A stretch of DNA of 40,084 nt, from positions 1 through 40,084 of the IMG/VR virus record IMGVR_UViG_3300046740_000180; one strand, written 5' to 3'. Shown here piece after piece: positions 4,121-36,647 of this stretch (the stretch's first letter is position 1; the number at the start of each line of letters is the position of its first letter). The DNA comes from a virus. The notes under the pieces are model-generated. The model was not told where the DNA came from, searched no databases, and saw nothing but the letters and a program-made list of their open reading frames with translations. The translations under genes were made by a program, and so were the position numbers.

Positions 4121-4789
4121 TTGAGCCCAAAGATTGATTTAGAAAGCAATTCTGGAGAGTCGATAACGCCCGAGTACTTCGAGCATCCCACCGAGGGATG
4201 GCTTCGGTACGATCCCAGCACGCTCTACATCGACGCCAATAAGGACGGCCAGAAGCCGGTGAGCCATCCGATTGCGATGGAGGGCAAGTTCTTCGGGACC
4301 AAGCAACCGCACGTTCCGACTTGCAGCGAGCCTGGGAACGGGAACGCAGGATGCCCGAAGTGGCACGGCTGCCCTCTCAAGAAGTACATGCACGTTGGCC
4401 CCGGCAACGTCATCATGCGGAAGCACGGAACCGTGTCGATGTCGGTCTGCTATGACTACTTCGAGACTACGCGTGGCGGGCGCCCAGCGTCCCAGTTGCA
4501 TCACGGGCTGGACGGCTGGAAGTTGGACGTGGATCGCACGACCATCGACATCTACGGGCGCACCTGGGCTTTCGAGTCTGGCAAGTTGAACGTGAACTCC
4601 ACGGCCGCCGAGATCAACGCCACGAAGCCACGCAGGAACGAGATGGAGATTGGCGGCCTTCTTCCGATGTGGTGGCCCCTGATGAAGAAGAAGGGGTTGG
4701 CGCTCCCCACGCAGGCCCAGCATTACCCCGAGTTGGCCGAGGACGACGACGAACCTCCCGTGGAGAAGCCCAAGCGTGCCAAGCGTTGA
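4121..4789 (+). CDS. Unknown Cys/His-rich protein after the capsid
   Basis: A 222-aa protein starting with TTG behind GGAGG. The middle contains a cysteine cluster, CSEPGNGNAGCPKWHGCPL, with a further Cys and several His nearby, suggesting a metal-binding site. The C-terminal end is acidic then basic (EDDDEPPVEKPKRAKR). No family was recognised. It follows the capsid gene and overlaps the first glycosyltransferase by 14 bases, so it could be a minor capsid protein or a partner of the glycosylation cassette. Both are inference. Confidence 0.75.
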   Translation: MSPKIDLESNSGESITPEYFEHPTEGWLRYDPSTLYIDANKDGQKPVSHPIAMEGKFFGTKQPHVPTCSEPGNGNAGCPKWHGCPLKKYMHVGPGNVIMRKHGTVSMSVCYDYFETTRGGRPASQLHHGLDGWKLDVDRTTIDIYGRTWAFESGKLNVNSTAAEINATKPRRNEMEIGGLLPMWWPLMKKKGLALPTQAQHYPELAEDDDEPPVEKPKRAKR

Positions 4790-5528
4790 CGTAATCATCC
4801 CGACCTGGAAGAACGAATACTGGTTGAAGCGATGTCTACGAGCCTTCGCAGAGGCCAAGATGCCGGAACTCGGGAAGGTCATCGTCGTGGACAACGGCGG
4901 GGACTTCTACGAGTCCAACCACTTCACGGCCGGACTGACGACAATGGTAGTGGCTCCGGGGAAGAATCTGGGCTGGACGGGCGGCCTGTACGAGGGCCTG
5001 CAGCACTCGGATTCCGAGTACGTCATGTTCATGAACGACGACGCAGAGTTTGAGCGTATGCCGGATCGGCTCACCCTAATGCTGGAGCATTTCAATGATC
5101 CGAAGGTTGCAGCAGTGGGTCCCGCTACTGGTACTGCTATGGGTAGGCAAGCCGTGGAGGGGCCGGATACTGAGGACACTGGGGTTCTCGTCGGCTTCTG
5201 TGTACTGGTCAGACGACCTACTCTTGATGCGGTCGGGGGAGTCCTACTGGATTGGGACTTGGGAGACGACATCGACCTCTGTATCCGTTTCTCCAAGGCA
5301 GGCTATCGAATGGTTATCGACCGGAGAGTGTTCGTTTACCACCATGCTTTCAAGACTGGAGTCAAGGTCTACGGGCAGCCAAAGAAGCCCGGAGGGTGGA
5401 ACTCCATAGAGATGGTTTCGGCCACCACGCAAAGGCTCATCTTGAAGCACGGCGCTGAGGCTGTGCTGGCTGCTCTCGGGGAGGAAGCGAAGCCCCAGGG
5501 GGTCCGAACCATCACCATCGAAACGTAA
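4776..5528 (+). CDS. GT2-family glycosyltransferase
   Basis: A 250-aa GT-A fold enzyme of the rhamnosyltransferase-like GT2 type. The N-terminal VDVIIPTWKNEYWLKRCL and VIVVDNGG form the nucleotide-sugar Rossmann half. MFMNDDAEF holds the metal-binding DxD-type motif. GDDIDLCIRFSKAGYRMVIDRRVFVYHHAF matches the conserved acceptor-side segment of the family. It would move a sugar from a nucleotide donor to an unknown acceptor in the cytoplasm. It starts with GTG inside the previous gene and leads a cassette of sugar-transfer genes placed within the structural operon. Confidence 0.88.
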   Translation: MPSVDVIIPTWKNEYWLKRCLRAFAEAKMPELGKVIVVDNGGDFYESNHFTAGLTTMVVAPGKNLGWTGGLYEGLQHSDSEYVMFMNDDAEFERMPDRLTLMLEHFNDPKVAAVGPATGTAMGRQAVEGPDTEDTGVLVGFCVLVRRPTLDAVGGVLLDWDLGDDIDLCIRFSKAGYRMVIDRRVFVYHHAFKTGVKVYGQPKKPGGWNSIEMVSATTQRLILKHGAEAVLAALGEEAKPQGVRTITIET

Positions 5529-5875
5529 TGGCAATCGAGGAAAAGGAACTCCCGAACTCGAACCAATGGGAAATCAAGGCGACCGGGGCCGACATCCCCA
5601 AACTGGCTGGGATGCTCACCGAGACTGGGAACGAAGCGTACAGGGAAGCGTTCCACTCGAACGAGGGCCAGTACGTGAAGATAGCGGACCCGCAGGGGAA
5701 CCTGACCCATGTGCATCAGAGGGATGTGGAGGGTGCGTTGGCTGCGGGGTATGGGCGGGCTGGGGCGACTCCGAGGATGATAATGCCGACGGTCCCGTGG
5801 GCGCAGAAGAAGTCGGGGCCGGGGAAGCACAAGTTCCGCTACAACAAACTGACGGGCGAGATGGAGGAAGTCTGA
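5528..5875 (+). CDS. Small unknown protein within the glycosyltransferase cassette
   Basis: A 115-aa soluble protein whose ATG overlaps the previous stop (TAATG). It contains a HVHQRDVEGALAAGYGRAG segment, with a short GPGKHKFRYNKLTGEMEEV tail. No family was recognised. The tight overlaps on both sides show co-translation with the flanking glycosyltransferases. It could be a small structural protein or an acceptor/adaptor for them. Confidence 0.75.
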   Translation: MAIEEKELPNSNQWEIKATGADIPKLAGMLTETGNEAYREAFHSNEGQYVKIADPQGNLTHVHQRDVEGALAAGYGRAGATPRMIMPTVPWAQKKSGPGKHKFRYNKLTGEMEEV

Positions 5876-6549
5876 ACAAGATCGACTTGGTTCTGTGCGT
5901 TCCGATGCTTCAACGCTCCGGGCTTCACCCTGCGACCTTCTACTCTCTCTGGACGATGCGGCACGAACTCCCGGACAAAGACCACATGGTGAGCCTGTTT
6001 CCGATGGACAGGCCCCAGGCTTCGGCAAGGTCTGACGCTCTCAGGCTGGCTAGGGACATAGAGGCCGAAGCGCTCCTGTTCATCGACTCGGACATGGAGT
6101 TTCAGCCCGACCTTTACCGTCGGCTCCTGGCCGTAGATGCCGACATCGCCTGCGGGCTTTTCTGGACGAAGCGCATCCCGTCTTTCCCAACGGTAATGCG
6201 AAAGATCAAGATGGCGGACGATTCGGACTCCCTGACCCACATCATCCCCGACGGCAAGGTTCACGAAATCGACGCCTGCGGGATGGCGGCCACCCTGATT
6301 CGGAAGAACGTCATCCAGAGCGACCGATTCGAGTATCCGGCGTTCAAGCACCTTGGCTCGATTGGAGAGGACTACTTCTTCTGCCTCCACGCGAGGGACG
6401 CCGGTTTCACAATCAAGTGCGACACATCCATCAAGGTTGCTCATCGCGGGGATGTCGCCTTCAACGGCCAGCCGATCCTGACCCACCCGGACCTAAAGAC
6501 CCTCTCCTACCCGTTCGGCGGCGAGGACGGCGTACAGAACGCGGTTTGA
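5872..6549 (+). CDS. FIDSD-type glycosyltransferase, copy 1, CTG start
   Basis: A 225-aa GT-A type glycosyltransferase. ALLFIDSDMEF carries the DxD motif. ACGLFWTKRIPSFPTVM and GEDYFFCLHARDAGFTIKCDTSIKVAHRG match the two related enzymes downstream. The coding sequence can only begin near a CTG that overlaps the previous TGA as CTGA, placed 5 bases after GGAGGAAG. This mimics the common ATGA junction with C in place of A. There is no ATG, GTG or TTG at a suitable distance. It is cytoplasmic, with donor and acceptor unknown. The methyltransferase downstream overlaps by four bases. Confidence 0.83.
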   Translation: MNKIDLVLCVPMLQRSGLHPATFYSLWTMRHELPDKDHMVSLFPMDRPQASARSDALRLARDIEAEALLFIDSDMEFQPDLYRRLLAVDADIACGLFWTKRIPSFPTVMRKIKMADDSDSLTHIIPDGKVHEIDACGMAATLIRKNVIQSDRFEYPAFKHLGSIGEDYFFCLHARDAGFTIKCDTSIKVAHRGDVAFNGQPILTHPDLKTLSYPFGGEDGVQNAV

Positions 6550-7199
6550 GTCCGTCCTATTACACGATACGGAACTGGCACGAGGACAAGAAGGCCTGGA
6601 TTCCAGACACCAGAGTTTGGAAGGAACTTCGTTCCGGAGACAAAATGTGGCTTGAGTCGTTGCAGCATCCCGAGGAACTAGGCTCCCTAGTAGAACTTCT
6701 CAAAATTGCGAAAGTAAAGACGGTGCTGGAAATCGGGGCCGGACCCTGCGGAACCGCCGTCTACTTCGCTGAGGCCGTGGGGCCAGAGGGCTACGTCGTC
6801 TCGGTAGACCTCCCAGCCGACATGGGCGGCACCCCGCCACAGTACGAGCAAATGGCCAAGGCCAAGGCCGAGAACTGGGAACTGGTGCGGGGATACTCGA
6901 TTGAGCAGGGCACCGTAGAAGCCGTCAAGAAGGCCCTTGGGGGCCGCCAGGTTGGACTTTTATTCATAGACGGGGAACATACCCTGGACGCGGCACGAAG
7001 CGACTACGAGACCTACAGGCCCCTTCTAGAGAAGGACGGCATCATCGCCTTCCATGACATCACCCTACCCGAGTTGTGGCCCTTCTGGTGCGGGTTGAGG
7101 GCCAAGCGGCACCCGGTTCGGTCAATGGAGTTCATCGACAGCAAGGAGCGGATCGGGTTCGGGATCGGCGCTCTAGTGGGGCGAGATGAAGGTTTTTGA
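6546..7199 (+). CDS. SAM-dependent methyltransferase
   Basis: A 217-aa class I methyltransferase. VLEIGAGPCGTAVYFAE is the SAM-binding motif I. VVSVDLP is the acidic end of strand 2. LLFIDGEHTLDAARSDYETYRPLLEKDGIIAFHDI matches the Methyltransf_24/cephalosporin-hydroxylase-like group, often found beside sugar-modifying enzymes. The TTG start overlaps the previous stop (TTGA). Among glycosyltransferases it probably O-methylates a sugar or a glycosylated product. The true substrate is unknown. Confidence 0.85.
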   Translation: MSPSYYTIRNWHEDKKAWIPDTRVWKELRSGDKMWLESLQHPEELGSLVELLKIAKVKTVLEIGAGPCGTAVYFAEAVGPEGYVVSVDLPADMGGTPPQYEQMAKAKAENWELVRGYSIEQGTVEAVKKALGGRQVGLLFIDGEHTLDAARSDYETYRPLLEKDGIIAFHDITLPELWPFWCGLRAKRHPVRSMEFIDSKERIGFGIGALVGRDEGF

Positions 7200-7950
7200 T
7201 TGCATCCTGTTCTTCAACGAGTTCGACCTATTGGACTTACGGCTTCGGACCCTGGATTCGGTTGTAGATACCTTCGTCATCGTGGAGGCCCCGTGGACGT
7301 TCAGCGGAAAGCCGAAACTACTCTACTTCAAAGAGTTCCATGATGGGTACGGTCCCTGGCTTCACAAGATACGCCACATTCAGTTGAGCGGGGCCATTGA
7401 CGCTCAGATTCCCTGGGAACGCGAGTGGGCGAGCCGGAACGCCATGGTCGAGGGGCTTTGGGACGCAGAGGCAGACGATCTGGTGTTTCAGTCTGACACA
7501 GACGAAATCTGGAGGCCGGAGAAGCGGGACGAGTACCCCAACGATCCCATCGTCACCTACGAGCAGAGCCACAACTTCTACAATCTAAATACGACCCGGC
7601 TCCCTGAACACAAGTGGCTAGGAACTAGGCGGTGCAAGTTCGGGTCGTGGCCTGGAGGGCAGAAGCTCAGGGATTCCGTAGGGCGTAGGATCGAGAACGG
7701 GGGCTGGCACTTCTCCTACCTTGGAGACGAATACCAAGCCTCGGCCAAACTCCAGGCGTTCTCCCACACCGAGTACAGCGGTCCCGAGTACAGCGATCCC
7801 AAGAAGATTCGGCAACACATGGACGCTGGGACCGACCTGATTACTCCGCTCCAAGCCTTCTACATCCCGGTTCCAGTTGATGCGACATTCCCGAAGCCAG
7901 TCTTGGAGAACCCGGATAGATGGAAGAAGTATATCAAGCCCGTAGCCTGA
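7186..7950 (+). CDS. Glycosyltransferase family 17 protein
   Basis: A 254-aa protein whose N-terminus, FDCILFFNEFDLLDLRLRTL, is followed by VVDTFVIVEAPWTFSGKPK. This closely fits family GT17, whose eukaryotic member adds bisecting GlcNAc to N-glycans. FQSDTDEIWRPE is the expected acidic motif. It starts with ATG overlapping the methyltransferase end by 14 bases. GT17 homologues are common in phages, but their substrates are mostly unknown. Here it belongs to a five-enzyme glycosyltransferase set in the virion operon, so a virion protein is a possible acceptor (inference). Confidence 0.88.
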   Translation: MKVFDCILFFNEFDLLDLRLRTLDSVVDTFVIVEAPWTFSGKPKLLYFKEFHDGYGPWLHKIRHIQLSGAIDAQIPWEREWASRNAMVEGLWDAEADDLVFQSDTDEIWRPEKRDEYPNDPIVTYEQSHNFYNLNTTRLPEHKWLGTRRCKFGSWPGGQKLRDSVGRRIENGGWHFSYLGDEYQASAKLQAFSHTEYSGPEYSDPKKIRQHMDAGTDLITPLQAFYIPVPVDATFPKPVLENPDRWKKYIKPVA

Positions 7951-8579
7951 CCCTCATCGCTCTACCCTACGTATCGAAAGACGGCTTCGTTGGTCCCTGC
8001 GTCGAGTCTCTTCTGAACGCCATCGCAACGAAAAGCCTGGGTTCTGTGAGTTTCATGTGCATCAAGGACCGGACCCAGGTTTCAGCTAGAAATCTAGCAG
8101 CGCATAAGGCCCTACAGATCGGTGCCGACTACCTTTGGTTCATCGACTCGGACCAGGACTTCTCGGTGGATATGCTGGCTAGATTGAAGCGAGTAGACGC
8201 AGACGTAGCGTGTGCGGATATGTGGTCTAGGTCATGGCCCTCGTTTCGGATCGTGTTCGGGAAGGAGCCGGCTTGGGAAGGCGGAAAGGCCCGCTATCTC
8301 CCAGTTGGGGACGAAATAGCTAATAAGGGTTCGATAGAGAACATTGAATACTGCGGCATGGGATGCACCCTTATTAAGACTTCGATGCTAGCCAAGCTGA
8401 AGGAAGCCGAGCCGAACCAGCCATGGTTTTGGGCTGCGGACCACGGAGAGGACGCCACCTTCTGCTTCAAGGTTCTGGAGGCCGGCGGGACCGTGAAGTG
8501 CGATTTCGGCCTCAAGTCTGGACATTGGGGAAACATCAGGATGATGGGACAGGACTACACACGGAGGCCGGTTGAGTAA
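7920..8579 (+). CDS. FIDSD-type glycosyltransferase, copy 2
   Basis: A 219-aa paralogue of the enzymes at 5872 and 8572. It has LTLIALPYVSKDGFVGPCVESL at the N-terminus, YLWFIDSDQDF with the DxD motif, ADMWSRSWPSFRIV, and GEDATFCFKVLEAGGTVKCDFGLKSGHWG near the end. ATG at 7920 is chosen because the N-terminus then aligns with copy 3. An in-frame CTG at 7947, overlapping the previous stop as CTGA, is the alternative. Copies 2 and 3 are adjacent, indicating local duplication. Confidence 0.85.
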   Translation: MEEVYQARSLTLIALPYVSKDGFVGPCVESLLNAIATKSLGSVSFMCIKDRTQVSARNLAAHKALQIGADYLWFIDSDQDFSVDMLARLKRVDADVACADMWSRSWPSFRIVFGKEPAWEGGKARYLPVGDEIANKGSIENIEYCGMGCTLIKTSMLAKLKEAEPNQPWFWAADHGEDATFCFKVLEAGGTVKCDFGLKSGHWGNIRMMGQDYTRRPVE

Positions 8580-9294
8580 CGTCGAGCAGGTTCCGAAGGG
8601 TGTCACCAGCATCGCCCTTCCGTTCGTCTCCAAGCAGGGATTCACCGGAGCTACAACCCAATCTCTAATCCTTGGGATTCTGGCGGGCGGAATGAAGATG
8701 AGCAAGTTCCTGTTCCTTGGGGACCACTCCCAGGTGCAGGCCAGAAACGTAGCCTGCCAGGATGCCATCGACATCGGGTCTGAGTGGATTTGGTTTATCG
8801 ACTCGGACGCAGACTTCCCGGTAGATGCTCTAGCCAGACTCAAGGCGTGCGATTCCGACATCGCCTGTACTGATATGTGGAGCCGAAATATTCCCTCCTT
8901 CCGTACAGTGATGAGGCTGGAAGTCATCGACGGGGACAGAGCCGGGGTGCCGGTGCCTGGGAACCCGACCGGAGTAGAGGACATCGACCTGTGCGGGATG
9001 CACTGTACGCTGATCAAGGTTTCGCTTCTAAAGAAGATCAAGGACGCGTTCCCTGAAAGCCCCTGGTTCTGGAACGGGAAGAACGGCGAGGATGCGGAGT
9101 TCTGCTTCAAGGCTAAAGACCTTGGGGCAAAGATCAAGTGTGACTTCTCGATCATGTCGGGCCACTGGGGGGTCGCTAGGATGGCCGGGCAGGACTGGAG
9201 CCGAGACGCAAAGAATCAGCCGATGCATGTAGCCAATATGGAAATGATGAAGAGAATGGGAGTCAAAAACCTAAAAGAAGAAGGAGTGGTCTAG
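8572..9294 (+). CDS. FIDSD-type glycosyltransferase, copy 3
   Basis: A 240-aa paralogue of the preceding gene, sharing IALPFVSKQGFTG, QARNVA, WIWFIDSDADF, DMWSRNIPSFRTVM and GEDAEFCFKAKDLGAKIKCDFSIMSGHWG. The TTG start lies in the 8-base overlap TTGAGTAA with copy 2. It ends the glycosyltransferase cassette; the next gene is a structural-type beta protein. Three divergent copies suggest different donors, acceptors or sequential sugar additions, which the sequence cannot resolve. Confidence 0.86.
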   Translation: MSNVEQVPKGVTSIALPFVSKQGFTGATTQSLILGILAGGMKMSKFLFLGDHSQVQARNVACQDAIDIGSEWIWFIDSDADFPVDALARLKACDSDIACTDMWSRNIPSFRTVMRLEVIDGDRAGVPVPGNPTGVEDIDLCGMHCTLIKVSLLKKIKDAFPESPWFWNGKNGEDAEFCFKAKDLGAKIKCDFSIMSGHWGVARMAGQDWSRDAKNQPMHVANMEMMKRMGVKNLKEEGVV

Positions 9295-12054: not shown

Positions 12055-12462
12055 ATGTCCACCTACCGCCTAAAGTACATCTTTAGGGCTTACTACAAAG
12101 ACAAGCCCATGTACGTCCAGAACGAGGCCGACACCTCGCAGACCACGCTTGGCCGAACCGCGTGGTACGACGTTGTGAATACGGAGCCAATCGCCTTCTC
12201 GCTTGAGGGTGCTGGCCAGATGGTGCTGCTTGACCTGGAGGGTGGTCGCTTCCTTATCAACGGTGTCGCTGTTGTTGACCCGGAATGTAGGGCACAGAGG
12301 GCTGTTACGCCCAAGCGCCTGATCTACTTCCGCAGAGTCCGGCAGGGGCTTACTCACGACTTCGTTGAGAAGGAAGGTACCACCAGGGTCGCGTACCATA
12401 TCGGCTGGCAGGCCAACGACGAGGACGGAAACAATCTCAAGTACGTCATGGAGCTAGTCTAG
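12055..12462 (+). CDS. Small unknown virion-region protein
   Basis: A 135-aa mixed alpha/beta protein with an ATG start, containing YRLKYIFRAYYKDKPMYVQNEADTS, GRFLINGVAVVDPECRAQRAVTPKRLIYFRRVRQG and a C-terminal YHIGWQANDEDGNNLKYVMELV. No family was recognised. It ends immediately before the giant fibre gene (TAG then TTG), so it may be an accessory or assembly factor for that fibre. Confidence 0.75.
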   Translation: MSTYRLKYIFRAYYKDKPMYVQNEADTSQTTLGRTAWYDVVNTEPIAFSLEGAGQMVLLDLEGGRFLINGVAVVDPECRAQRAVTPKRLIYFRRVRQGLTHDFVEKEGTTRVAYHIGWQANDEDGNNLKYVMELV

Positions 12463-15400
12463 TTGTCCCGTAGATTCAACGGGTCCACGGACCTTATCTC
12501 CTGCGCTTCTCCGGCTGTTCTGGACAACCTGACGGGCGGCCTCACGATTGGGTGCTGGATTTACGCATCGAACTTCGGGGCCAACTCCAAGGGTTATATC
12601 GTTGGTAAGGGAACCTCAGACTCCACCAACACTACGACGTGGCGCATCGCCAATGCTACGTCTGGAGGGGCCGACAAGTACGCCCTACGGTTCGAGGTAA
12701 TGTACTCGGACGGATTTGGGTTGTTCCGTGAGACTGCCAATGCCTCGTTCACGCTAAATACGTGGTACTACGTCATCGTCACCTGGGGAGGCTCCAACGC
12801 CAGGACAGACATACATATGTACTCGGAGGGTGTCGAGTGTACCTACGGGGCTGGTGGAGAGCATAACGGTGGTACTACCCACGATGATTCGGCTGGCAAC
12901 TGGGTAATCGGAGAGAGGCCAGCACAGCACAACAGAACGTGGTCTGGCGATCTCTATGGGCTTAGGGCGTGGGCGTCGGTAATATCCAGCACCAACTTCG
13001 CTTCCATGAGACTGGACGGAACCGTGGGTACTCCGGTCGGCTGGTGGGCTATGAACGGGACCGCCGACCCTGAACCAGACACTTCTGGTAACGGAAACGA
13101 TGGAGTCCTAACTGGGACCACCGGCTCAAGTAACCCCCCAGCGATTGGCACGGCCCATACAAGCCAATCGATCCCAGGCACGGCCAAGATTCATGCGACC
13201 CTGACGAAGACGCTTACCGGGGTGGCCAACATCTTCCCGTCTGGCCGTCACCAGCGCCCCATCACGGGCGTAGCAGCCATAACTCCTGGGCTTGTGAACG
13301 CTACGTGGACCGCGCTACCGGCTCCAACCCAGGTGCCGTATGCCAGCCTTAGCGGAACCTACGACCCTCGCGGTTGGGACAAACTGGAGTACGACCCAAC
13401 TAGCGGCAAATTCTGGACGTGGGACGGCTATCTTGCGAGTGACAGGGCCTACACGATCTACGGAAACGCCCTGTGGCAGTACGACCAGGGAAGCAACAAA
13501 CTCATCCTCTACAAGATCATCAACTGGCAATGGACAGCCCCCACCTACGTCACGTCTCCAACTCCAGAGAACGCGGCTGACCCTACCCCATACGACCGAC
13601 ATTCGTACCAGGGAATGTGCGTGGTTCCCTCTCAGAACAAGTTGTATCTATGGGGCGGAGCGAACACTACCAAGGCGGACAACTGGAAGGCCGAGTTCTG
13701 GAGTTACGACCTAGCGGCCACACCGGGGACGGTCAATTCGTGGACCCTGATTTCAACGTCCAGCGACAGCACGCTAACCAATTCCACGACGCCTACGCTG
13801 CCCCCATACGCATCGTTCGAGCAGTGTATGGTGAACGACACGCAGAACGGGCAACTAATCGTATTCAGCGCCAGGAACGACCACGGGTTTGTGCAGGAGG
13901 GCCGGGACACCTTCACCTATAACCTGGCCGCTGGGACTTGGGCGAAGCGTGCCAACGCAAGCGGTGACCCCGGAGCGAGACTTGGGCACTCGATGTGCTG
14001 GGACTCGTCTAGGAATTGCGTCTGGATGTTCGGTGGTAGCGGCGCTTCCCCGTATCCCCAGTTGGGGAACGAACTCTGGAAGTACGTTCCGGCAACGAAC
14101 ACCTGGAGCCAGCCTACTACTACTGGAGGCCCGCCAAGGACTAGGCGTTTCGGAAACTGGGCCTACGATTCCCAGAACGATGTCTGCGTGCTGTTCGGTG
14201 GGAGCGACGTTTACAGGAACGCTGGGGATACTGCGGACCTGTCAGACAGCAGTTTCGTAGGGCTGAACGATACGTGGGTATTCCGCCCAGGCTCTCTTGT
14301 GTGGCAGCAGTTGTCCCCGTCCGCTAGCCCAACAGCATCCGAGTCGTTCGGCAACAAACTGGCCTACGATTCGGTCAACAACTACTTCGTCTACAACGCT
14401 ATGGGGACAGAGGGTAAGTTCTACCTGTTCCGATATGGTTCCACGCCACATGCTAGCCAGACGATTACTGGCAAGGCCAAGATCAAGGCTCACATCCCCC
14501 AGACCATCACGGGCGTTGCCAACATAACCCCGAACACGGCCAAGCAGACTCAGACAATCACTGGGAAGGCCAACATAGCCGCAGGCCCGCTTTCGGTTCA
14601 GATCACTGTAAGCGAGACACTTCCGCTGAGCGTCCCTGGCTTGGCTCGGTCCCTGTCTCCGGTGAGTGTTGGAATCCCGATTCCTGAGTCAGCAAATATC
14701 TCCAGCGTAAGCCAGCTTGGGATGACCGGTCCCACAGCCTACCAATTCCGAATCCTTGGAAACTACGCTAGCGGCAAAGCCAAGTGGGTGTTGTGTGACT
14801 TCCTAGATTCCGTGTCGGCTGGCGGTAGCAGTACGGCGGCAACGCTGACTAGCGGCACCGGGGCGCTCGGCTCCAACATGGCTACGGACGGGGCCACAAT
14901 CTCCGTGGACACCGGAGCGGCGGTGTTCTCGGTCGTCAAGGCCCCGTTCAAGATGTTCGATGCGGTGACCGTTGGCGGGACTTCTGTGGTGACCACTGGG
15001 GGAACCGGGGTAACGTTGCTGGTGGGTGGTATCGCCTACTCGTCTGCCAACGACAATAGCGCCACGACTACGGTAGAAGAGAACGGCCCGGTCCGAGTCT
15101 GCGTCTTGTCCAAGGGTGCGTTGAAAAACGGCGGCGGCACCCGGCTCATGGACTACACGGTGAGGCTGCACTTCTACAAGGGTAAGTCTTACTGCCGGGC
15201 CTTCGTTACACTGCGGAACGCCAAGGAGTCATCTACTCAGGCTCCAGTTGTCTTTGACTCGGTGGAAGTGTCTCTCAAGGTTGGCACTTCAGCCTCGACT
15301 TTCGTAACCAAGACCTCGCTGGACGTTTCTCCGCTTTCCATCCCGCTGTCTGCTGCGGAGACGGCCTACGCTTATCAGGCGTACTCGACAAAGTATCAGG

Positions 15401-17595
15401 CCACATCCTCTCAGAACGATTATGCTACTGCACCGATGAATACTGCCGTGAAGGGCGTGGCCGTCGTGAAGGGCGCTACGACTTACCACGCTCAGAGCGG
15501 AAACACTTCTGACTACGTTGAGTGGGCTGCCCTGGAGGATTCTGGCGGCAAGGGCGTAACGATGGTCATGCCGTACATGGCCCAGTATTGGCCTGCTGGA
15601 TTCGAGGTGTCCCAGGACGGCTCATGCTCGGTACAGTTATTCTCTAAGAGGAACAGTAAGACCGGGATCAAGTTCGCATTCCTGGCTCACGAGACTCGGG
15701 AACTCTTCTTCGACTTCCACGCTACTACTCCGGCCAGCAGAAGCACCGCTCTCTACGAGGCCCAGTATTCTCTCCAGGGTAGGGCCAGCGTAACGCAGTA
15801 CGCATCTACTGGTGCCATCTTCGGAGAGACTCAACTGGTATCTCAGGCAGAGCAAGATACGTGGTACACGACCCTGACTGCGGTGTCTGGCCCACCAGGC
15901 GGAGTACCCAACGTGGTCCCTGGGATTATCCGGTGGTGGTCTTGGAATCAGGGGTCCGGCAACAACCAGACAGACTTCGCCGTAATCGACTTCATTGACT
16001 GGATAAGGACCGGGTACGGCGGATACTGGTGGCAGGGATTCAAGAACACTTGGTTCAAGAGCCACAACGCAGTGCCGTGGTCCGACGACTGGGACATGTA
16101 CCTTGACCAGATCAATGCCGGGGACGAGACTGGCGGCACCAACCTTGGCACATTCAACTCCTACCCATTCCAGCAGGCGCACCCCCACTTCACAAGCCTG
16201 ATGCTCGGATACTACATGACTGGGCAGATGGAGTTCTACGATGCTGTGTATGAGTACGGAGAATACGAAATATCTCTAGGGGACGGCATCTCCCCGCTCC
16301 TGTTCTACAACCCCACTGGGTCATTCGACAACGTAGGCTCTTCATTTAGCCTTGAGACGGTAGGGGACATGCGTATCTGGTCCCGCTATCTCAGGAACTT
16401 CGCTGCCATATGGGACTTCACCAGAAATCCGCGATACTACTCCATGATGTCCCTCATGGTGAACAGCATGCTGAACTCCACGGAAGTCCCAGGCTCCGTG
16501 GCTCCTGCTGGCCGAAATCGTCGCAGGGGATATATGTGGATGTCTCACGGAGCCTTTGCGCTTCCACGAACGGTATCGGACTTCTTTACTTCTCAGATTC
16601 ACTTCGAAGCGGTCTGGTACGCTAAGATGATGCTGGCCGAACAGGGAGCAACAGCCACCGTCCTAGCAATCGAGGACTATCTGCTCGGCCTGGGCGACTT
16701 CATGTACTACGAGATGTTCTTCGATCTTACTGGTAGTGGTGGGGCTATGGGTTATCTCTACACCTACTACTTGGATGTAGCTAACAACTCAACAAATAAC
16801 CCGCACTGGCCGCCACTCGACTATCTGAGAATGATTGCCGGTGGGCGTTGCTGGACGTTCATGTGGCAGATGACCGGAGATACGAAGTACCTGGATCGAG
16901 GGCGGCTCCTGCTGGTTGGGGATGCCAAGGGGCAGACGGACGCTGGAGTGTCGTTTAGAACTCCGTCCGACTTCCCACAGCAGGCGTTCATGTACAACGA
17001 CCTGTACCGGCCCGAGACTGGGTGGATCAACGCTAGCCCAGTAAGCGCGTTCCCGATTGGGCTAAACAAGTACAGAGTGTTCGTAACTCTACCGTCTACG
17101 GCCAACGGGGTAAGGGTGAGGGCGGCTCCTGCTGGGTCAAACATAGTTGACTGGCTTGGATTCAGCCAGGACTCAAGAACCTACATCTACGGCTCAACGG
17201 GCTTTACTCCCTGGTTCGCTGGAGTCCATTTCACAGACCCCGACGCAACCCAGGTCAAGGCCAACGGCTTCTTCGACCTAACCGGAACCAACATAGTGAC
17301 TCAATACGGTTCCTTCATGGTGAAGTACACGACCGGAACAACCCCAGTCTCGACCCCTAGAACGATCCAGGGCAAGGCGAAGATTCTAGCCCACGTTCCG
17401 CAAACCATCACCGGCAAGAGCAGAATCCTCAAGCACGTTCCGCAGACTATTACCGGGGTGGCGTCGATCCTGCCTCCGAGTACCACTAGGGCGGTCTACG
17501 ACATTACCGGGGTAGCGAAGATAAGCACCGGCCCTGGCCCCTCGACGTGGATCCACGGAACGACCCCATACGGACAATGGAAGAAGGGTAGATAG
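12463..17595 (+). CDS. Giant modular tail fibre with lectin, kelch and polysaccharide-lyase-like domains
   Basis: A 1710-aa protein with a TTG start. Residues 1-230 match LamG/concanavalin-like lectins (FNGSTD, LTIGCWIYAS, WYYVIVTWGG, YGLRAWASV). About 275-660 is a kelch propeller (LYLWGGAN, CVWMFGGSG, CVLFGGSD). About 710-1100 resembles the RIFT-barrel and beta-sandwich of YetA/PL26 exo-rhamnogalacturonan lyases (SVGIPIP, KAKWVLCDF). About 1140-1560 is a Trp/Tyr-rich helical part like their alpha/alpha toroid. Ten short QTITGKAKI-type repeats sit at domain borders (near 235-270, 660-705 and 1630-1690). It probably binds and perhaps degrades a surface polysaccharide. Enzyme activity is inferred; catalytic residues were not identified. 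Confidence 0.88.
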   Translation: MSRRFNGSTDLISCASPAVLDNLTGGLTIGCWIYASNFGANSKGYIVGKGTSDSTNTTTWRIANATSGGADKYALRFEVMYSDGFGLFRETANASFTLNTWYYVIVTWGGSNARTDIHMYSEGVECTYGAGGEHNGGTTHDDSAGNWVIGERPAQHNRTWSGDLYGLRAWASVISSTNFASMRLDGTVGTPVGWWAMNGTADPEPDTSGNGNDGVLTGTTGSSNPPAIGTAHTSQSIPGTAKIHATLTKTLTGVANIFPSGRHQRPITGVAAITPGLVNATWTALPAPTQVPYASLSGTYDPRGWDKLEYDPTSGKFWTWDGYLASDRAYTIYGNALWQYDQGSNKLILYKIINWQWTAPTYVTSPTPENAADPTPYDRHSYQGMCVVPSQNKLYLWGGANTTKADNWKAEFWSYDLAATPGTVNSWTLISTSSDSTLTNSTTPTLPPYASFEQCMVNDTQNGQLIVFSARNDHGFVQEGRDTFTYNLAAGTWAKRANASGDPGARLGHSMCWDSSRNCVWMFGGSGASPYPQLGNELWKYVPATNTWSQPTTTGGPPRTRRFGNWAYDSQNDVCVLFGGSDVYRNAGDTADLSDSSFVGLNDTWVFRPGSLVWQQLSPSASPTASESFGNKLAYDSVNNYFVYNAMGTEGKFYLFRYGSTPHASQTITGKAKIKAHIPQTITGVANITPNTAKQTQTITGKANIAAGPLSVQITVSETLPLSVPGLARSLSPVSVGIPIPESANISSVSQLGMTGPTAYQFRILGNYASGKAKWVLCDFLDSVSAGGSSTAATLTSGTGALGSNMATDGATISVDTGAAVFSVVKAPFKMFDAVTVGGTSVVTTGGTGVTLLVGGIAYSSANDNSATTTVEENGPVRVCVLSKGALKNGGGTRLMDYTVRLHFYKGKSYCRAFVTLRNAKESSTQAPVVFDSVEVSLKVGTSASTFVTKTSLDVSPLSIPLSAAETAYAYQAYSTKYQATSSQNDYATAPMNTAVKGVAVVKGATTYHAQSGNTSDYVEWAALEDSGGKGVTMVMPYMAQYWPAGFEVSQDGSCSVQLFSKRNSKTGIKFAFLAHETRELFFDFHATTPASRSTALYEAQYSLQGRASVTQYASTGAIFGETQLVSQAEQDTWYTTLTAVSGPPGGVPNVVPGIIRWWSWNQGSGNNQTDFAVIDFIDWIRTGYGGYWWQGFKNTWFKSHNAVPWSDDWDMYLDQINAGDETGGTNLGTFNSYPFQQAHPHFTSLMLGYYMTGQMEFYDAVYEYGEYEISLGDGISPLLFYNPTGSFDNVGSSFSLETVGDMRIWSRYLRNFAAIWDFTRNPRYYSMMSLMVNSMLNSTEVPGSVAPAGRNRRRGYMWMSHGAFALPRTVSDFFTSQIHFEAVWYAKMMLAEQGATATVLAIEDYLLGLGDFMYYEMFFDLTGSGGAMGYLYTYYLDVANNSTNNPHWPPLDYLRMIAGGRCWTFMWQMTGDTKYLDRGRLLLVGDAKGQTDAGVSFRTPSDFPQQAFMYNDLYRPETGWINASPVSAFPIGLNKYRVFVTLPSTANGVRVRAAPAGSNIVDWLGFSQDSRTYIYGSTGFTPWFAGVHFTDPDATQVKANGFFDLTGTNIVTQYGSFMVKYTTGTTPVSTPRTIQGKAKILAHVPQTITGKSRILKHVPQTITGVASILPPSTTRAVYDITGVAKISTGPGPSTWIHGTTPYGQWKKGR

Positions 17596-17774
17596 TGAGT
17601 CTCGACTACGAGAAAAGCGACGTGATGGGCTTCGCGCTATTCGGGATGCCTATTCCGATCTACAACGGGACCGCGTTCCTAGACCCTGCGGTTTGGGTTG
17701 AGAGGACGGCCAGTTCTGGCGGGTTCTCGGAGCGTAGCGTTACTGGTACTACCTGGGTGGAGAAGGGTACTTGA
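17595..17774 (+). CDS. Small protein between fibre and tailspike
   Basis: A 59-aa protein with GTG overlapping the fibre stop (TAGTG) and ending in TGA that overlaps the next TTG. It begins MSLDYEKSDVMGFALFGMPIPIYNG and is rich in aromatic and Gly residues. No family was recognised. Tight coupling to both receptor-binding genes suggests an adaptor or chaperone for fibre or spike. Confidence 0.68.
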   Translation: MSLDYEKSDVMGFALFGMPIPIYNGTAFLDPAVWVERTASSGGFSERSVTGTTWVEKGT

Positions 17775-19129
17775 GCGATCCAGTCGGAGGCATTTGGGCC
17801 TGGAAGTCTGGGGAGTTCCAGCCCGCCAACTTCGCCTCTACCGTGGTGGGGCTACAGGCAGCCGTGGACTACTGCGGGACCACGGGCGGAGAGATCAAGA
17901 TTGGCCCCGGCACCATCGCCTGCGGGACCACCACCGTCCTGGTTAGCACGGGGCTGGCTGGGACGCTCATCATCTCGGGATCGGGCGAGAGGGCCACGAT
18001 CCTCTCCTACACCGGAACCGGAAGCCTCATCACGCTGGGGGCCGACGACGGGAACCACTCCGGCTCCGCCAACTCCTATGCTGGAACTATCCTGTTCCGT
18101 CTCAAGGACATCAAGCTGGCTGGCCCTGGAGAGACTTCGCTTGCTACTGGAGTCACGGACTGGGAGAACGGGTCGGCCCGCTACGAGAACGTCTTCTTCG
18201 ACCAGTGGCTTGTGGGCTACTTCGGCATAGGCGCGGACGTTGTTACCTTCGACACATGTCTGTTCAACAAGTGTGGGAAGGGCGCGTTCATCGCTACGAG
18301 GTCTGACCAGAACACATTCCAATCCTGCTACTTCTCCCTGAATACGATTGGCGCGAACATAGAGTACGCCACCGGCACCCGTTTCACCGACTGCCAGTTC
18401 GTATTCTCGGACACTTCCGACATCGTGTTTGACGCTCCAGCTAGCCCTACGTCCAATGGAGAGGCCAGGACCGATGCCGCTGCGTGGATTGCTGGATGCT
18501 GGTTCGAGTCCACGTCCAGCCCGAATGTCACGAATCATATCAACATCGGGACCAACGGGACGCAGGCGAGACGTTATGAGGCAGTACACATCAACAACTG
18601 CTACTTGCTGGCCGTAAACACTACCAACTTCGTGAACGTAGAGGCTGCGAACATCGTCCGGCTTGAGAACGTCTATCAGGCCGGGACCATCACTGGGGCG
18701 CTCATGAACATCACCAGTGTCTCCAGCCTGACTCAAGAGGTGTCGATTAAGGAGTGCCGTGTCAACGGTGGCACGTTCTTCGGAGGAACCTCAAGCGCCA
18801 CCCAGGCCCTTCTCTACAGAGCCAGGAACACCACTAGCAGCGCCTTCGCGGCCTCGTTCACTCCCAATGCGCTTGGCGGGGAGATTCAGGAGATCGGGGC
18901 GCTTACCGCTGCCATCACGATCAATGCCCCCACCAACCCGGTGCGAGGAAAGTATCTCCAATTCAGGATCATCCAGGACGGTACCGGAGGCTGGGGCGTG
19001 ACCTGGGACTCTGTGTTCAAGCACGGATGGAGCAACACCGGGAACACGGCAAGTAAGAGAAGCACGATTACCTTCTACTACGACGGTTCCAACTGGAACC
19101 AGGTCGGGGCGCAGTCACCATATTACTAG
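17771..19129 (+). CDS. Beta-helix tailspike-like protein
   Basis: A 452-aa protein. The N-terminal FASTVVGLQAAVDYCGTTGGEIKIGPGTI matches the start of pectate-lyase-type right-handed beta-helix spikes. Repeated short strands follow (FDTCLFNKCGKGAFIATRSDQNTFQSCYF, FTDCQFVFS, VHINNCYLLA). A C-terminal domain of about 80 residues ends FYYDGSNWNQVGAQSPYY, a motif common at phage spike ends. It starts at TTG (TTGA overlap). It probably trimerises and binds or cleaves host glycan. No catalytic pair could be assigned. Confidence 0.82.
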   Translation: MSDPVGGIWAWKSGEFQPANFASTVVGLQAAVDYCGTTGGEIKIGPGTIACGTTTVLVSTGLAGTLIISGSGERATILSYTGTGSLITLGADDGNHSGSANSYAGTILFRLKDIKLAGPGETSLATGVTDWENGSARYENVFFDQWLVGYFGIGADVVTFDTCLFNKCGKGAFIATRSDQNTFQSCYFSLNTIGANIEYATGTRFTDCQFVFSDTSDIVFDAPASPTSNGEARTDAAAWIAGCWFESTSSPNVTNHINIGTNGTQARRYEAVHINNCYLLAVNTTNFVNVEAANIVRLENVYQAGTITGALMNITSVSSLTQEVSIKECRVNGGTFFGGTSSATQALLYRARNTTSSAFAASFTPNALGGEIQEIGALTAAITINAPTNPVRGKYLQFRIIQDGTGGWGVTWDSVFKHGWSNTGNTASKRSTITFYYDGSNWNQVGAQSPYY

Positions 19130-19311: not shown

Positions 19312-19986
19312 GTGGCATCGACCGCCGATCTGGAAACTGCGGTGCGCGACCTGATTGGAGAGGATACGGCGGGAAAGGTGTCCTCGCCCCAGATGGTGCG
19401 CTTCCTCAACATCGCCCAACGGAATCTCTGCGTCGAGGGCGACATTCTACTGTCCGAGTGGTCAACGTCCACCGTGGCGGGGCAGGAAGAATACTCGGTG
19501 CCCACGGACTTCTTGAACGTGTCCTCCATCTTCATCTACGACACGACCGTAGGGCACAAGGTGAAACTTGCCCCGATGACGATTCATCAGCGAGACCCGG
19601 CCAAGAACCAGGGCTACCCTCGGTGGTACTATATCCACGGCTTGAACGTCTCCAGTGTGAACGCCTACACGTTGGGGCTGAATCCGATCCCCTCGTTCAG
19701 CGGCACGTCTAACCTCGAACTGTGGGGTCGGCAGCAGCCCTTGACGATGGTTACTGGAGGGCAGGCCCCGGAGATTCTTACACCGTGGCAGGACTACTTG
19801 GTGGCCTATGCGGCTTGGTGCTGCTACGTCCGTAGAGGCCCCGACTTCCGGCCCTACGCTTCGGACATGTGGCAAATCTGGCAGCGTGGGTTGGAGAAGG
19901 CCAAGGCGTGGCGTAACCCGCTCATGAACGACTACCCGATTGAGGCCGCTGACACGGCGGGATACAACTCCAACTATGGCTATTAG
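19312..19986 (+). CDS. Head-tail adaptor protein
   Basis: A 224-aa protein with the layout of podovirus adaptors (P22 gp4 / gp11-like). It has an N-terminal helical part, LETAVRDLIGEDTAGKVSSPQMVRFLNIAQRNLCVEGDILLSEW, then a central beta part (AGQEEYSVPTDFLNVSSIFIY) and a C-terminal helix (MWQIWQRGLEKAKAWRNP). It would seal the portal and connect it to the nozzle. The adjacent downstream nozzle-like gene supports the call. The GTG start directly follows the previous TAG. Confidence 0.78.
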   Translation: MASTADLETAVRDLIGEDTAGKVSSPQMVRFLNIAQRNLCVEGDILLSEWSTSTVAGQEEYSVPTDFLNVSSIFIYDTTVGHKVKLAPMTIHQRDPAKNQGYPRWYYIHGLNVSSVNAYTLGLNPIPSFSGTSNLELWGRQQPLTMVTGGQAPEILTPWQDYLVAYAAWCCYVRRGPDFRPYASDMWQIWQRGLEKAKAWRNPLMNDYPIEAADTAGYNSNYGY

Positions 19987-22393
19987 CCAACTGGAAGTAG
20001 GCACGTCCAAGCGCCCCTTCCGTGGGCTGACGGAGCTTCCCTTCTACGGACGAGACCCTGGGTGGCTCAGGAAGTGCGAGAACTTCCGACGTATGCCGGA
20101 GGGATACCTTGAGGCTCGTGGCGGCTTCCAGTCTATCCGGGCAAGCGGCGGGTCTACTACCGACCCAATCTCGGCTGGTATCTACGTTGGTGCCCACGAG
20201 CATACGATGGCTGACGGGTACATCTTCACGGCTGGCACTGGCGGAACTGTGTTCTTGGCCAACCTAGCGCAGCGAGGATACTTTGAGATTTGGTCGTCTA
20301 GCGCAGAGGCCAAGCACGACGCCCTCTATGTCGGCGCTGACTCCAAGTTCTCAAGAGTAGTTCTGTACATCGGGCAGGCCCTGGTGTCTGGCGGCGCGGC
20401 ACAGACTTTCACCTACGAGTATCCGAAGGCCGCAGCGTGGGACACGGACGGCAACGCAGCCACTAGCGGCACGCTCACCACTACCAGCACGCCTACGTTC
20501 ACGGCCACTGGAGAGCAGATTCTTGAGTTCGCCATCCCTACTGATTGGGTCAAGGCTGTAAGAAATGGAGTCTACGCTTGGTGGGTTCGCATTAGGCTCT
20601 CCGATGTTGGTGGGGGGATCACCACGGCGGCCCGCCAGGGGGCTACTGCTGCCACCAGCCCGAACCAAAAGGTCTACTGCGACTGGACCGGGACCAGACA
20701 GATTTACGTTGGCTCTGCCAATGGCGCTGCTGCTACCAACAACGGCTTAGTCAAGTACTACGGCCAGTCGTCCTCTACGGCGCTGTCATGGCAGAGCGTG
20801 TCCACTTCTCTATTCAGCGGGAACAACCCCCCGTATCGCTTTTCGTCCTACAAGAACTTGGTCTACTTCGTGAACGGCAAGGAGCAGAAGCGCTGGGACA
20901 ACAACACGCTTGCCGATATTGGGTTCACGGCTCCCACGAGTAGCGGCCCCTCGGCCAACGTGGGTGGGGCTGGCGTACTCAACGGTGTGTTCGGGTACTC
21001 GGTAACTTACGGCTACGGCCCCGCTGGAGAATGGGGAGAGTCCAATGAACTTAGTCTTGGGTCGGCGTCTCCTCCTACCAAGAACGTGGTCTGGACCCTC
21101 AACCTAACCAGCATCCCTGCTCAGGCAGAGGTGCTGTACGTCTACCGAACCACTGACACTACAAGCGTTGTGGAGACTTCTTCGTTCCCTCAGTTCCGAA
21201 TCCAGACTCTCTATAGGGATGCCACCGGATCGTTCCCTACCACGGTCACAGACAACACTCCCGACTTCCCGTTCCCGCCAGTTGAGTTGAACGTGGCGAC
21301 CACCGCTCCCCCGTCTCGGTGCAAGTACGTCACGACCCACAAGAACCGTCTGTTCCTTGGGAGCAACAACCAGTATCCGGGCCGTGTGTGGTGGAGTGAG
21401 ACGTTCCAAGCCGAGTCGTTTAATACTGACGAGAACTTCGCAGACTTCACTAGGTCTACTGGCGGCCAACTTACCGGCATGGCCGAGTTCAACGACCAGG
21501 TAATTGCCTGGACTGAGGATCAGATGTTCGGGATTGCTAATCTAGACCAGGACATCCCTAGCATCTTCGTAATCTCCCCCGGAGTCGGCTGCGTGGCCCC
21601 AGACTCCGTGGCCGTTGGTAACGGGCTGCTCATGTGGCTTGGCAGGAACGGGGCGTATGTGTGGGATGGAGACAATCCTCCGAAGCGCGTGAGCGACGGG
21701 CTGCCCATCACGTTCGGGAAACTATCCTATGAGAACCACGGAGGGAGCCGAGCAGTAATCCACAACAGGATGTATGAAGTCTCGTTTGCCAAGGCTGACC
21801 GATCCGACGGCTCCAGTACCACGCTGTCGTACCGATACGATCTAGTCACAGACTCATGGGCCAAGGTCGTGACGGCCAGCAGTACCTATTGGATGCCTAT
21901 CATATCCGCCACTATGCCGCTAGCTCACGCTGATGCAGGCTATCGCCATCCTCTCTACGGGGCCATGAAAACTGGTGGCACGGACTACACGCTAAACGTC
22001 GGAGAGTACACCACGCAGGACTCCGGCTCTAACTTCACCTGCACCGTCGAGGTTCACTTCGGCCCGAGCGGGCTTAGAGAAGTTACGCCCCAGAAGGCGT
22101 GGGCCTACTACGATGGCTCATCTTCTACCGGCTGGGCCACTCCGACTCTTAGCAACGTAAATACCAGCGCCTATCTTGGCGATACTCCCGGCACGCTCAA
22201 CAATATGACTCCGGATGGCGGCCAGGACTACAGCCGACTTTCTGGAATATACAGCGAGGGCACACTAGGGACCGGAGACTTGCTGGTTGGATTCTCTGCT
22301 GTAACGAACGGAAGCGGGTCTGCTAACGGGCAGAGGCTACTATCGGTCGGACTAGAGGCAAGCGGAACCGACCCCCTGTGGGGTAATTCGTAG
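19976..22393 (+). CDS. Tail nozzle / tail stabilisation protein
   Basis: An 805-aa protein whose ATG overlaps the adaptor end. The N-terminal FRGLTELPFYGRDPGWLRKCENFRRMPEGYLEARGGF and later NRLFLGSNNQYPGRVWWSE, GMAEFNDQVIAWTEDQMFGI and LLMWLGRNGAYVWDGDNPPKRVSDGLP are propeller-blade motifs of P22 gp10-type nozzle proteins, which close the podovirus tail below the adaptor. The C-terminal 250 residues are more Thr/Ser-rich, probably a fibre-docking part. Position, size and motifs agree. Confidence 0.82.
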   Translation: MAISQLEVGTSKRPFRGLTELPFYGRDPGWLRKCENFRRMPEGYLEARGGFQSIRASGGSTTDPISAGIYVGAHEHTMADGYIFTAGTGGTVFLANLAQRGYFEIWSSSAEAKHDALYVGADSKFSRVVLYIGQALVSGGAAQTFTYEYPKAAAWDTDGNAATSGTLTTTSTPTFTATGEQILEFAIPTDWVKAVRNGVYAWWVRIRLSDVGGGITTAARQGATAATSPNQKVYCDWTGTRQIYVGSANGAAATNNGLVKYYGQSSSTALSWQSVSTSLFSGNNPPYRFSSYKNLVYFVNGKEQKRWDNNTLADIGFTAPTSSGPSANVGGAGVLNGVFGYSVTYGYGPAGEWGESNELSLGSASPPTKNVVWTLNLTSIPAQAEVLYVYRTTDTTSVVETSSFPQFRIQTLYRDATGSFPTTVTDNTPDFPFPPVELNVATTAPPSRCKYVTTHKNRLFLGSNNQYPGRVWWSETFQAESFNTDENFADFTRSTGGQLTGMAEFNDQVIAWTEDQMFGIANLDQDIPSIFVISPGVGCVAPDSVAVGNGLLMWLGRNGAYVWDGDNPPKRVSDGLPITFGKLSYENHGGSRAVIHNRMYEVSFAKADRSDGSSTTLSYRYDLVTDSWAKVVTASSTYWMPIISATMPLAHADAGYRHPLYGAMKTGGTDYTLNVGEYTTQDSGSNFTCTVEVHFGPSGLREVTPQKAWAYYDGSSSTGWATPTLSNVNTSAYLGDTPGTLNNMTPDGGQDYSRLSGIYSEGTLGTGDLLVGFSAVTNGSGSANGQRLLSVGLEASGTDPLWGNS

Positions 22394-36344: not shown

Positions 36345-36424
36345 ATCCTGTGTTGATTGCTGCTGCGATTGTGGTTGTTGGGGCTTTGATTTGGTGGAAT
36401 TGGCCGAGGGACCCCGTTGGCTAG
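36341..36424 (+). CDS. Tiny single-span membrane peptide
   Basis: A 27-aa peptide with an ATGA overlap start, MNPVLIAAAIVVVGALIWWN followed by WPRDPVG. It is a clear membrane span with Trp at the interface. Its stop overlaps the TTG of the next gene. The size is below usual annotation limits, but coupling on both sides supports it. Confidence 0.66.
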   Translation: MNPVLIAAAIVVVGALIWWNWPRDPVG

Positions 36425-36457
36425 GGTAGCCCCGTTCTGTCATGCGTGCGCCTGGGA
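36417..36457. repeat. 41-bp direct repeat at gene starts, copy 1
   Basis: Matches 36607-36647 with a single mismatch (C/G at the fifth base). It starts exactly at the TTG start codon and covers the FCHACAW zinc knuckle. Confidence 0.88.
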
Positions 36458-36614
36458 AGTGCCGTTGGAGTGCTGTAGAGACGGTGTTACTTCGTGGAAG
36501 AACGTAGATTGCAGGGTGGAGTTTGCTGCTCCGGTGCCTAAAGTTAAGTGGCTTAAACTTAGTCGGGAGTGTCCTAAGTGTGGATTGACGACGGAGTTCG
36601 AGTCATTTGGGTAG
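36417..36614 (+). CDS. Small zinc-binding protein (CHAC module A)
   Basis: A 65-aa protein with a TTG start, MARVAPFCHACAWEVPLECC with a C-terminal pair (RECPKCGLTTEFESFG). The FCHACAW knuckle and CPKCG pair can form one zinc site. Its first 14 codons are almost identical in DNA to those of the next gene. Confidence 0.76.
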   Translation: MARVAPFCHACAWEVPLECCRDGVTSWKNVDCRVEFAAPVPKVKWLKLSRECPKCGLTTEFESFG

Positions 36615-36647
36615 GGTAGCCCCGTTCTGTCATGCGTGCGCCTGGGA
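36607..36647. repeat. 41-bp direct repeat at gene starts, copy 2
   Basis: Partner of the repeat at 36417-36457, spaced 190 bases away and also starting at the TTG codon. Confidence 0.88.

Follow-up and report, generated by a model that had tools for sequence, protein, structure and literature searches.

A 1710-Residue Fibre-Like Phage Protein Combining a LamG Domain, a Kelch Propeller, and a Divergent PL26-Related Core with Kin in Bacterial EPS Clusters

Gene and Genomic Setting

The stretch of DNA described here (the window) comprises the 40,084 bases of the virus record IMGVR_UViG_3300046740_000180. Its ends carry an imperfect direct repeat (positions 1–297 and 39788–40084; 297-base overlap, 96.6%), and another contig, L061 (IMGVR_UViG_3300046714_000300), crosses the join of these ends with an identity of 99.6–100%. 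Since the ends overlap and L061 spans the join, the window is taken as a nearly complete genome, of ~39.8 kb, of a small phage of soil type.

The gene that encodes the 1710-residue fibre/spike-like protein occupies positions 12463–17595 of the plus strand, starts with TTG, and contains no internal stops. An upstream stop codon (TAG, 12460–12462) lies directly 5' of this start, and a likely ribosome-binding site, GGAG (12450–12453, plus strand), can be read nine bases 5' of the TTG. The presence of GGAG at the start, of domains throughout, and of homology that extends to residue 1593 rules out an artefactual reading frame, and the gene is real, as the first-pass annotation had assumed.

Terminase and portal genes are present in the same record. 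The plus strand also carries an SU10-type adaptor gene (19312–19986; PF24175, 7.3e-17), part of a podovirus-like structural module, as well as an internal virion protein-like gene located downstream of the 1710-residue ORF (19940–22393; phrog_511, 1.2e-6). On the strength of these four genes, the ORF is assigned to the structural genes of a podovirus-like phage, and such a location in the tail or structural module is a trait of virion-associated phage depolymerases. Directly behind the fibre gene, positions 17771–19129 encode a 452-residue protein whose start, AAVDYCGTTGGEIKIGPGTI, resembles a β-helix tailspike by eye and which has no match in Pfam or PHROGs.

Modular Architecture of the Protein

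The protein starts with a LamG/concanavalin A-like lectin domain (residues 8–176; 12484–12990, plus strand), which matches PF13385 (LamG_3) above the cut-off on the N-terminal piece with an E value of 3.7e-11. It is followed by a kelch β-propeller (residues 343–635; 13489–14367, plus strand), recognized by PF24681 (residues 437–625, E 9.6e-26) and PF24981 (residues 343–635, E 1.2e-20), so that Pfam scores above the cut-off define the family membership of both modules. They are likely to serve as glycan-binding or scaffolding modules. No recognized N-terminal virion anchor was found in the 1710-residue protein.

Three stretches of QTITGKA-type repeats, identified in the translation with a motif scan, are located at the LamG/kelch boundary, at the kelch/core boundary, and at the C terminus of the protein, and take forms such as QTITGKAKI and QTITGVANI. 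All are on the plus strand: ITGxA-type repeats in the first linker (residues 235–273; 13165–13281), three QTITGKA/VA repeats in the second (residues 664–705; 14452–14577), and ITGxA-type repeats again in the C-terminal tail (residues 1633–1710; 17359–17592). The tail is preceded by an Fn3-like piece common to the relatives of the protein (residues ~1530–1593; 17050–17241, plus strand; profile match 2.3e-10, and alignment). Neither the three repeat stretches nor the Fn3-like piece had been described in the first-pass annotation, which had otherwise given the order of modules as LamG, kelch, RIFT barrel/β-sandwich, and toroid; this order is borne out by Pfam, homology, and models.

Fold and Family of the Core

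Three parts can be distinguished in the core, all encoded on the plus strand. A RIFT-barrel-like N-terminal part (residues ~710–808; 14590–14886) is predicted by AlphaFold2 with pLDDT mostly above 90 and is also supported by homology. The central β-sandwich (residues ~809–1100; 14887–15762) is defined by a match to PF21345 (PcRGLX_2nd) above the cut-off and by the AlphaFold2 model, and the α/α-toroid-like part (residues ~1100–1525; 15760–17037) by the profile of the close family built without the window (2.4e-37), by the models, and by VIA. RIFT barrel, β-sandwich, and α/α toroid are the combination characteristic of polysaccharide lyase family PL26, and all three are predicted in the core, with the toroid part weaker.

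The match to PcRGLX_2nd covers residues 809–917, with an E value of 9.7e-6 and 25.3 bits (cut-off 23.5) when the whole protein is searched, and improves to 9.5e-7 and 28.6 bits on an isolated piece of it. The window protein is not matched by PcRGLX_1st and PcRGLX_3rd, but these models are insensitive, since they match only 7 and 1, respectively, of the 23 members of the core alignment; PcRGLX_2nd matches 19 of them. The segments SVGIPIP (residues 735–741) and KAKWVLCDF (residues 772–780), which had first drawn attention to PL26, indeed fall in columns common to PL26-like relatives and PcRGLX.

The AlphaFold2 model of the core, based on an alignment of 23 sequences that included 13 bacterial PL26-like proteins, has a pLDDT of 67.7 and a pTM of 0.77, and its first 220 residues are mostly above 90. 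When it was compared with the PDB using Foldseek, all of the top 13 rows were PL26 PcRGLX chains (E 7.2e-17 to 3.5e-15), followed by a GH38 mannosidase (8.9e-7); the VIA alignment with PcRGLX gave a Z score of 29.1 over 600 residues, and the family ranked second reached 20.0 over 276. Since the 13 PL26-like proteins are part of the alignment used by AlphaFold2, this fold match is not independent of homology. Matches in BFVD were limited to weak viral rows, the best at 1.2e-7. The toroid modelled alone reached a pLDDT of only 59; Foldseek gave no row below 0.001 for it (best 0.035, GH76), and its VIA rows were mostly α/α-toroid enzymes, the best with a Z score of 15.5, which is near the chance level for helical models. 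PcRGLX is not among the 50 VIA rows listed for this model. Structure prediction thus bears out the proposed likeness to PL26, less firmly in the toroid than elsewhere, and the core model has a polysaccharide-degrading fold, another trait of virion-associated phage depolymerases.

When the seven closest relatives were made into a profile with the window left out, it matched the window with 491.6 bits (2.2e-148), whereas the best of 50 shuffled sequences reaches 3.3 bits, so that a chance match is ruled out for the core. Similarly, a profile of the bacterial PL26-like proteins, again without the window, gives 2.8e-51, with shuffled copies unmatched. In hhalign, the close subfamily and the 13 bacterial PL26-like proteins align with a probability of 100 and an E value of 3.2e-53 over 695 columns that extend into the toroid. 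In turn, these 13 proteins match PcRGLX at about 7e-26, and it is through them that the sequence link from the close subfamily to a solved structure passes. The close-subfamily profiles alone find no related PDB chain by sequence (a single chance row, E 0.97), for which reason the close subfamily is considered a divergent branch. As judged by sequence comparison and by the predicted model, the core is related to PL26 in fold and homology, yet it represents a divergent subfamily and not PL26 proper. The resemblance put forward in the first-pass annotation therefore stands for fold and homology and does not extend to membership of PL26 itself, as the residues of the toroid make clear.

Residues of the Putative Active Site

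Seven residues in the toroid region are identical in the 13 bacterial PL26-like proteins. Three of them are retained in the window protein, as Trp1161, Gly1254, and Arg1304, the last (16372–16374, plus strand) being aligned with an arginine that is invariant in the PL26-like relatives and also present in PcRGLX. The other four are changed (G441 to S1165, D442 to G1166, D497 to H1201, and H502 to W1206, the first of each pair in the numbering of the distant bacterial protein L031), and include two acidic residues and one histidine. The Gly-Asp pair formed by G441 and D442 is absent from every close-subfamily member in the alignment. With four of seven invariants changed, the label of exo-rhamnogalacturonan lyase is therefore not transferable to the window protein.

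One further position can be considered. The sequence of 5xqo, a substrate complex, differs from other PcRGLX sequences by a change of tyrosine to phenylalanine near chain position 437, from which we infer that this tyrosine is catalytic. It falls within a segment inserted in PcRGLX and left unaligned by the profile, and it has no clear counterpart in the window protein.

On the other hand, the close subfamily has a polar set of its own. It is kept in all eight members aligned and includes Trp1161, Asn1168, and Gln1169 (15943–15969, plus strand), as well as His1240 and His1242 (16180–16188, plus strand). The invariance of this set suggests a site that has changed but is not dead; a retained, re-tooled active site is plausible from these alignments, and a dead site is possible.

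Relatives in Bacteria and Viruses

Searches of 50,697 phage records and of plasmids by tblastn gave no match to the core, with only weak scraps appearing at E 10, nor was there any in PHROGs or NCBIfam. Viral contigs scanned with single proteins, or with the window protein and L026, likewise yielded no relative. A search of genome_contigs located one bacterial locus, in an Acidobacteriales MAG, with 26% identity over residues 710–1588 (E 6e-69). In whole-genome searches around this MAG, a threshold of 1e-6 recovered matches in 16 of 297 genomes, the close-subfamily profile at 1e-30 matched 4 of 397 genomes, and core relatives were present in 2 of 38 genomes of another class. The bacterial relatives comprise the close subfamily, represented by six copies of the core from five genomes (the G454 copy is a fragment), and the 13 more distant PL26-like proteins. 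Two of the latter, L031 and L037, end with a C-terminal hydrophobic segment resembling a membrane anchor, with no signal peptide seen, and L031 is also near glycosyltransferase-like genes.

When viral contigs were scanned with the close alignment, four virus contigs were recovered, and a second close-subfamily profile gave the same four. All of them, and the window, have a terminase match (in L041 under the Pfam cut-off, with a strong PHROG match). In L041 and L042 a PL26-like core is fused to a kelch domain that follows it; in L041, LamG is found in the next gene, and the core gene lies beside terminase and portal genes. The modules LamG, kelch, and core thus recur in different orders, as seen in these fusions, in the separate LamG gene, and in the bacterial pairing with kelch.

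The tree unites the close cores of bacteria and viruses in one clade (100/100), within which the core of the window pairs with that of bacterial G086 (98/96), and L041, L042, and L044 are found on a separate branch together with the remaining four bacterial copies (100/100). Its starred branches require a minimum of two changes between bacterium and virus, to which the tree gives no direction. Signal-peptide-like N termini are present on the bacterial copies and, by eye, on L042, and on L044 if read from an internal methionine; the window ORF has none. Because two of the related virus copies carry such starts, these copies may not be virion parts.

By eye, Sec-signal-like starts are also found on seven consecutive large ORFs in L042 (2023–20424) and on several in L044 (3585–17206). 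A crude script assigned signal-like starts to five of these seven L042 ORFs, to 3 of 12 L044 genes, to 2 of 44 genes in the window, neither of them in the fibre module, and to none of 18 in L062. Exported phage fibre-like proteins in L042 and L044 would be odd.

EPS Clusters and Kelch Neighbours

The close relatives in G001, G086, G258, and G383 sit among EPS-type biosynthesis genes, not in pectin-use loci. Their neighbours encode a Wzx-like flippase, sugar-transfer ATP-grasp, GT4 and GT2 glycosyltransferases, and a polysaccharide deacetylase, together with an asparagine synthase-like protein (best NCBIfam model XrtA/PEP-CTERM amidotransferase, 705.8 bits, under the cut-off of 816.9) and an O-antigen-ligase-like protein (147.9 against a cut-off of 188.1). 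The asparagine synthase-like gene is present in three of four close-subfamily genomes and none of 13 other PL26-like ones, and GT4 in all four compared to 1 of 13, the context lengths being unequal between the loci compared.

A kelch domain is fused to the core (G383) or encoded nearby (G001, G258, G454) in four of five close genomes, compared to 1 of 13 others. Domains of G258, G383, L042, and the window went into the kelch profile used here, so that these four match by construction, although Pfam had found their kelch domains earlier; the independent matches are G001, G454, and L041. Restricted to far loci with at least 13 kb of context, and with G454 left out, the comparison is three of four close against one of nine far loci (p 0.05). 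In the DNA examined for G086, the nearest relative of the window, no kelch gene neighbours the core.

Comparison with Known Systems

In PcRGLX (PL26; 5xq3, 5xqg, 5xqj, 5xqo), a RIFT barrel, a β-sandwich, and an α/α toroid follow one another in the same order as in the core of the window protein. The identity in structural alignments is about 10–14%, and several toroid residues found throughout PL26 are changed. The window protein, a phage gene product, extends beyond PcRGLX with its LamG and kelch domains, repeat linkers, and Fn3-like piece.

Closer counterparts are the secreted PcRGLX-like proteins of acidobacterial EPS clusters (L003, L026, L027, and L050), with 26–31% identity across the core, including the toroid and the Fn3-like piece. 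They have the same residue set as the window protein and are usually paired with kelch, but they carry signal-peptide-like starts, their kelch domain follows the core or is encoded by a gene close by, and no LamG was found with them. The G383 copy has a Big_7 tail, unlike the window protein. L041 and L042 have a PL26-like core and kelch in common with the window protein; however, the core precedes kelch, they belong to a separate branch of the tree, and their starts resemble signal peptides by eye, which that of the window protein does not.

Phage depolymerases are mostly β-helix endo-enzymes. What the window protein would share with them is a polysaccharide-degrading role in the tail. In the DepoScope survey, 984 polysaccharide-degrading fold matches among phage proteins were assigned to β-helices in 85.8% of cases, propellers in 12.1%, and α/α toroids in 1.1% (11) (PMC11326577), so that toroids are rare but not unknown in phage proteins. 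The passages of the survey consulted name no PL26-like phage depolymerase, and the literature, represented mostly by titles and abstracts, offered no description of a phage PL26 or toroid fibre.

Proposed Role and Alternatives

We class the window protein with phage depolymerases and receptor-binding proteins, as a variant that belongs with a new PL26-like subfamily linked to EPS. On balance, we favour the view that the ~39.8-kb podovirus-like phage carries it on the virion as a fibre or spike, which binds the host's EPS and trims it by means of a divergent PL26-type core. In the mechanism envisaged, the LamG and kelch domains would hold the phage on this EPS, and the core, as a glycan enzyme of a subfamily encoded in acidobacterial EPS biosynthesis clusters, would use its toroid/sandwich cleft to shorten or open the chains from their ends, giving the phage access to the cell surface. 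By analogy with PcRGLX, which acts on rhamnogalacturonan, the core likely acts on a chain end of the host EPS. As judged from gene kinship, the host is probably an acidobacterium; of 396 Acidobacteriota genomes, 9 had matches to the terminase, all of them partial and generic.

The changed toroid residues allow a different view of the same protein, in which the PL26-like core is no longer catalytic and, together with LamG and kelch, makes up a large module for glycan recognition in a fibre that only binds. The replacement of four of seven invariants, two acidic residues and a histidine among them, and the lack of a clear counterpart to the tyrosine mutated in 5xqo both point that way. However, the bacterial members share much of this loss and yet keep the Trp, Asn, Gln, His, His set, and the whole multi-domain core is kept in two phage lineages; we regard a binding-only fibre as a serious but lesser possibility. 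The tail enzyme first supposed, a true exo-rhamnogalacturonan or pectin lyase, could draw on PcRGLX being the best fold and family match, but with PL26 positions changed, close relatives located in EPS clusters, and close-subfamily profiles that do not reach PcRGLX by sequence, it is very improbable, and a pectin or rhamnogalacturonan substrate is unsupported. Pectin use by the phage was also considered and dropped, as no gene for it was seen.

The place of the protein in the virion can be questioned as well. The signal-peptide-like starts of the bacterial relatives and of L042 and L044 would suit a soluble or host-surface enzyme produced in the course of infection, for instance an accessory protein that modifies EPS. 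Against this stand the absence of a signal-like start from the window ORF, whose LamG domain begins right behind the start codon, the repeat linkers, and the position of the gene within the structural module, and a non-virion protein seems unlikely. If the virion-attached enzyme is the correct reading, a fibre with a PL26-type toroid core would broaden a phage depolymerase repertoire dominated by β-helices, and an exo-enzyme in this place raises the question of how end-acting cleavage helps a phage through the coat. The link to EPS clusters provides a handle on the composition of acidobacterial EPS and on phage entry into hard-to-grow soil bacteria, and the subfamily offers enzymologists a defined clade with conserved residues of its own.

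We can speculate, quite tentatively, that phages of EPS-making soil bacteria have exchanged a module of kelch and the PL26-like EPS-cluster protein with their hosts at least twice and use it to open the same EPS. One lineage would have built it into a virion fibre of the order LamG, kelch, and core, and others would have kept the Sec signal, so that infected cells may export the protein and EPS is trimmed at lysis or ahead of it. On this view, the subfamily would be a new family of glycan lyases, or of epimerase-like enzymes, with its own active site.

Other Features of the Window

A glycosylation cassette is located upstream of the fibre gene in this small phage genome (4776–9294). It consists of a GT2 (4776–5528; PF00535, 2.1e-12), a GT17 (7186–7950; PF04724, 9.1e-25), a methyltransferase (6417–7199; PF13578, 3.3e-13), and two phrog_1574 proteins (5566–6549 and 8572–9294), and virion proteins may be the target of its decoration. 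No tRNA genes or Rfam matches are found in the window. Upstream of the terminase genes there are two near-identical 41-bp direct repeats, at 36417–36457 and 36607–36647.
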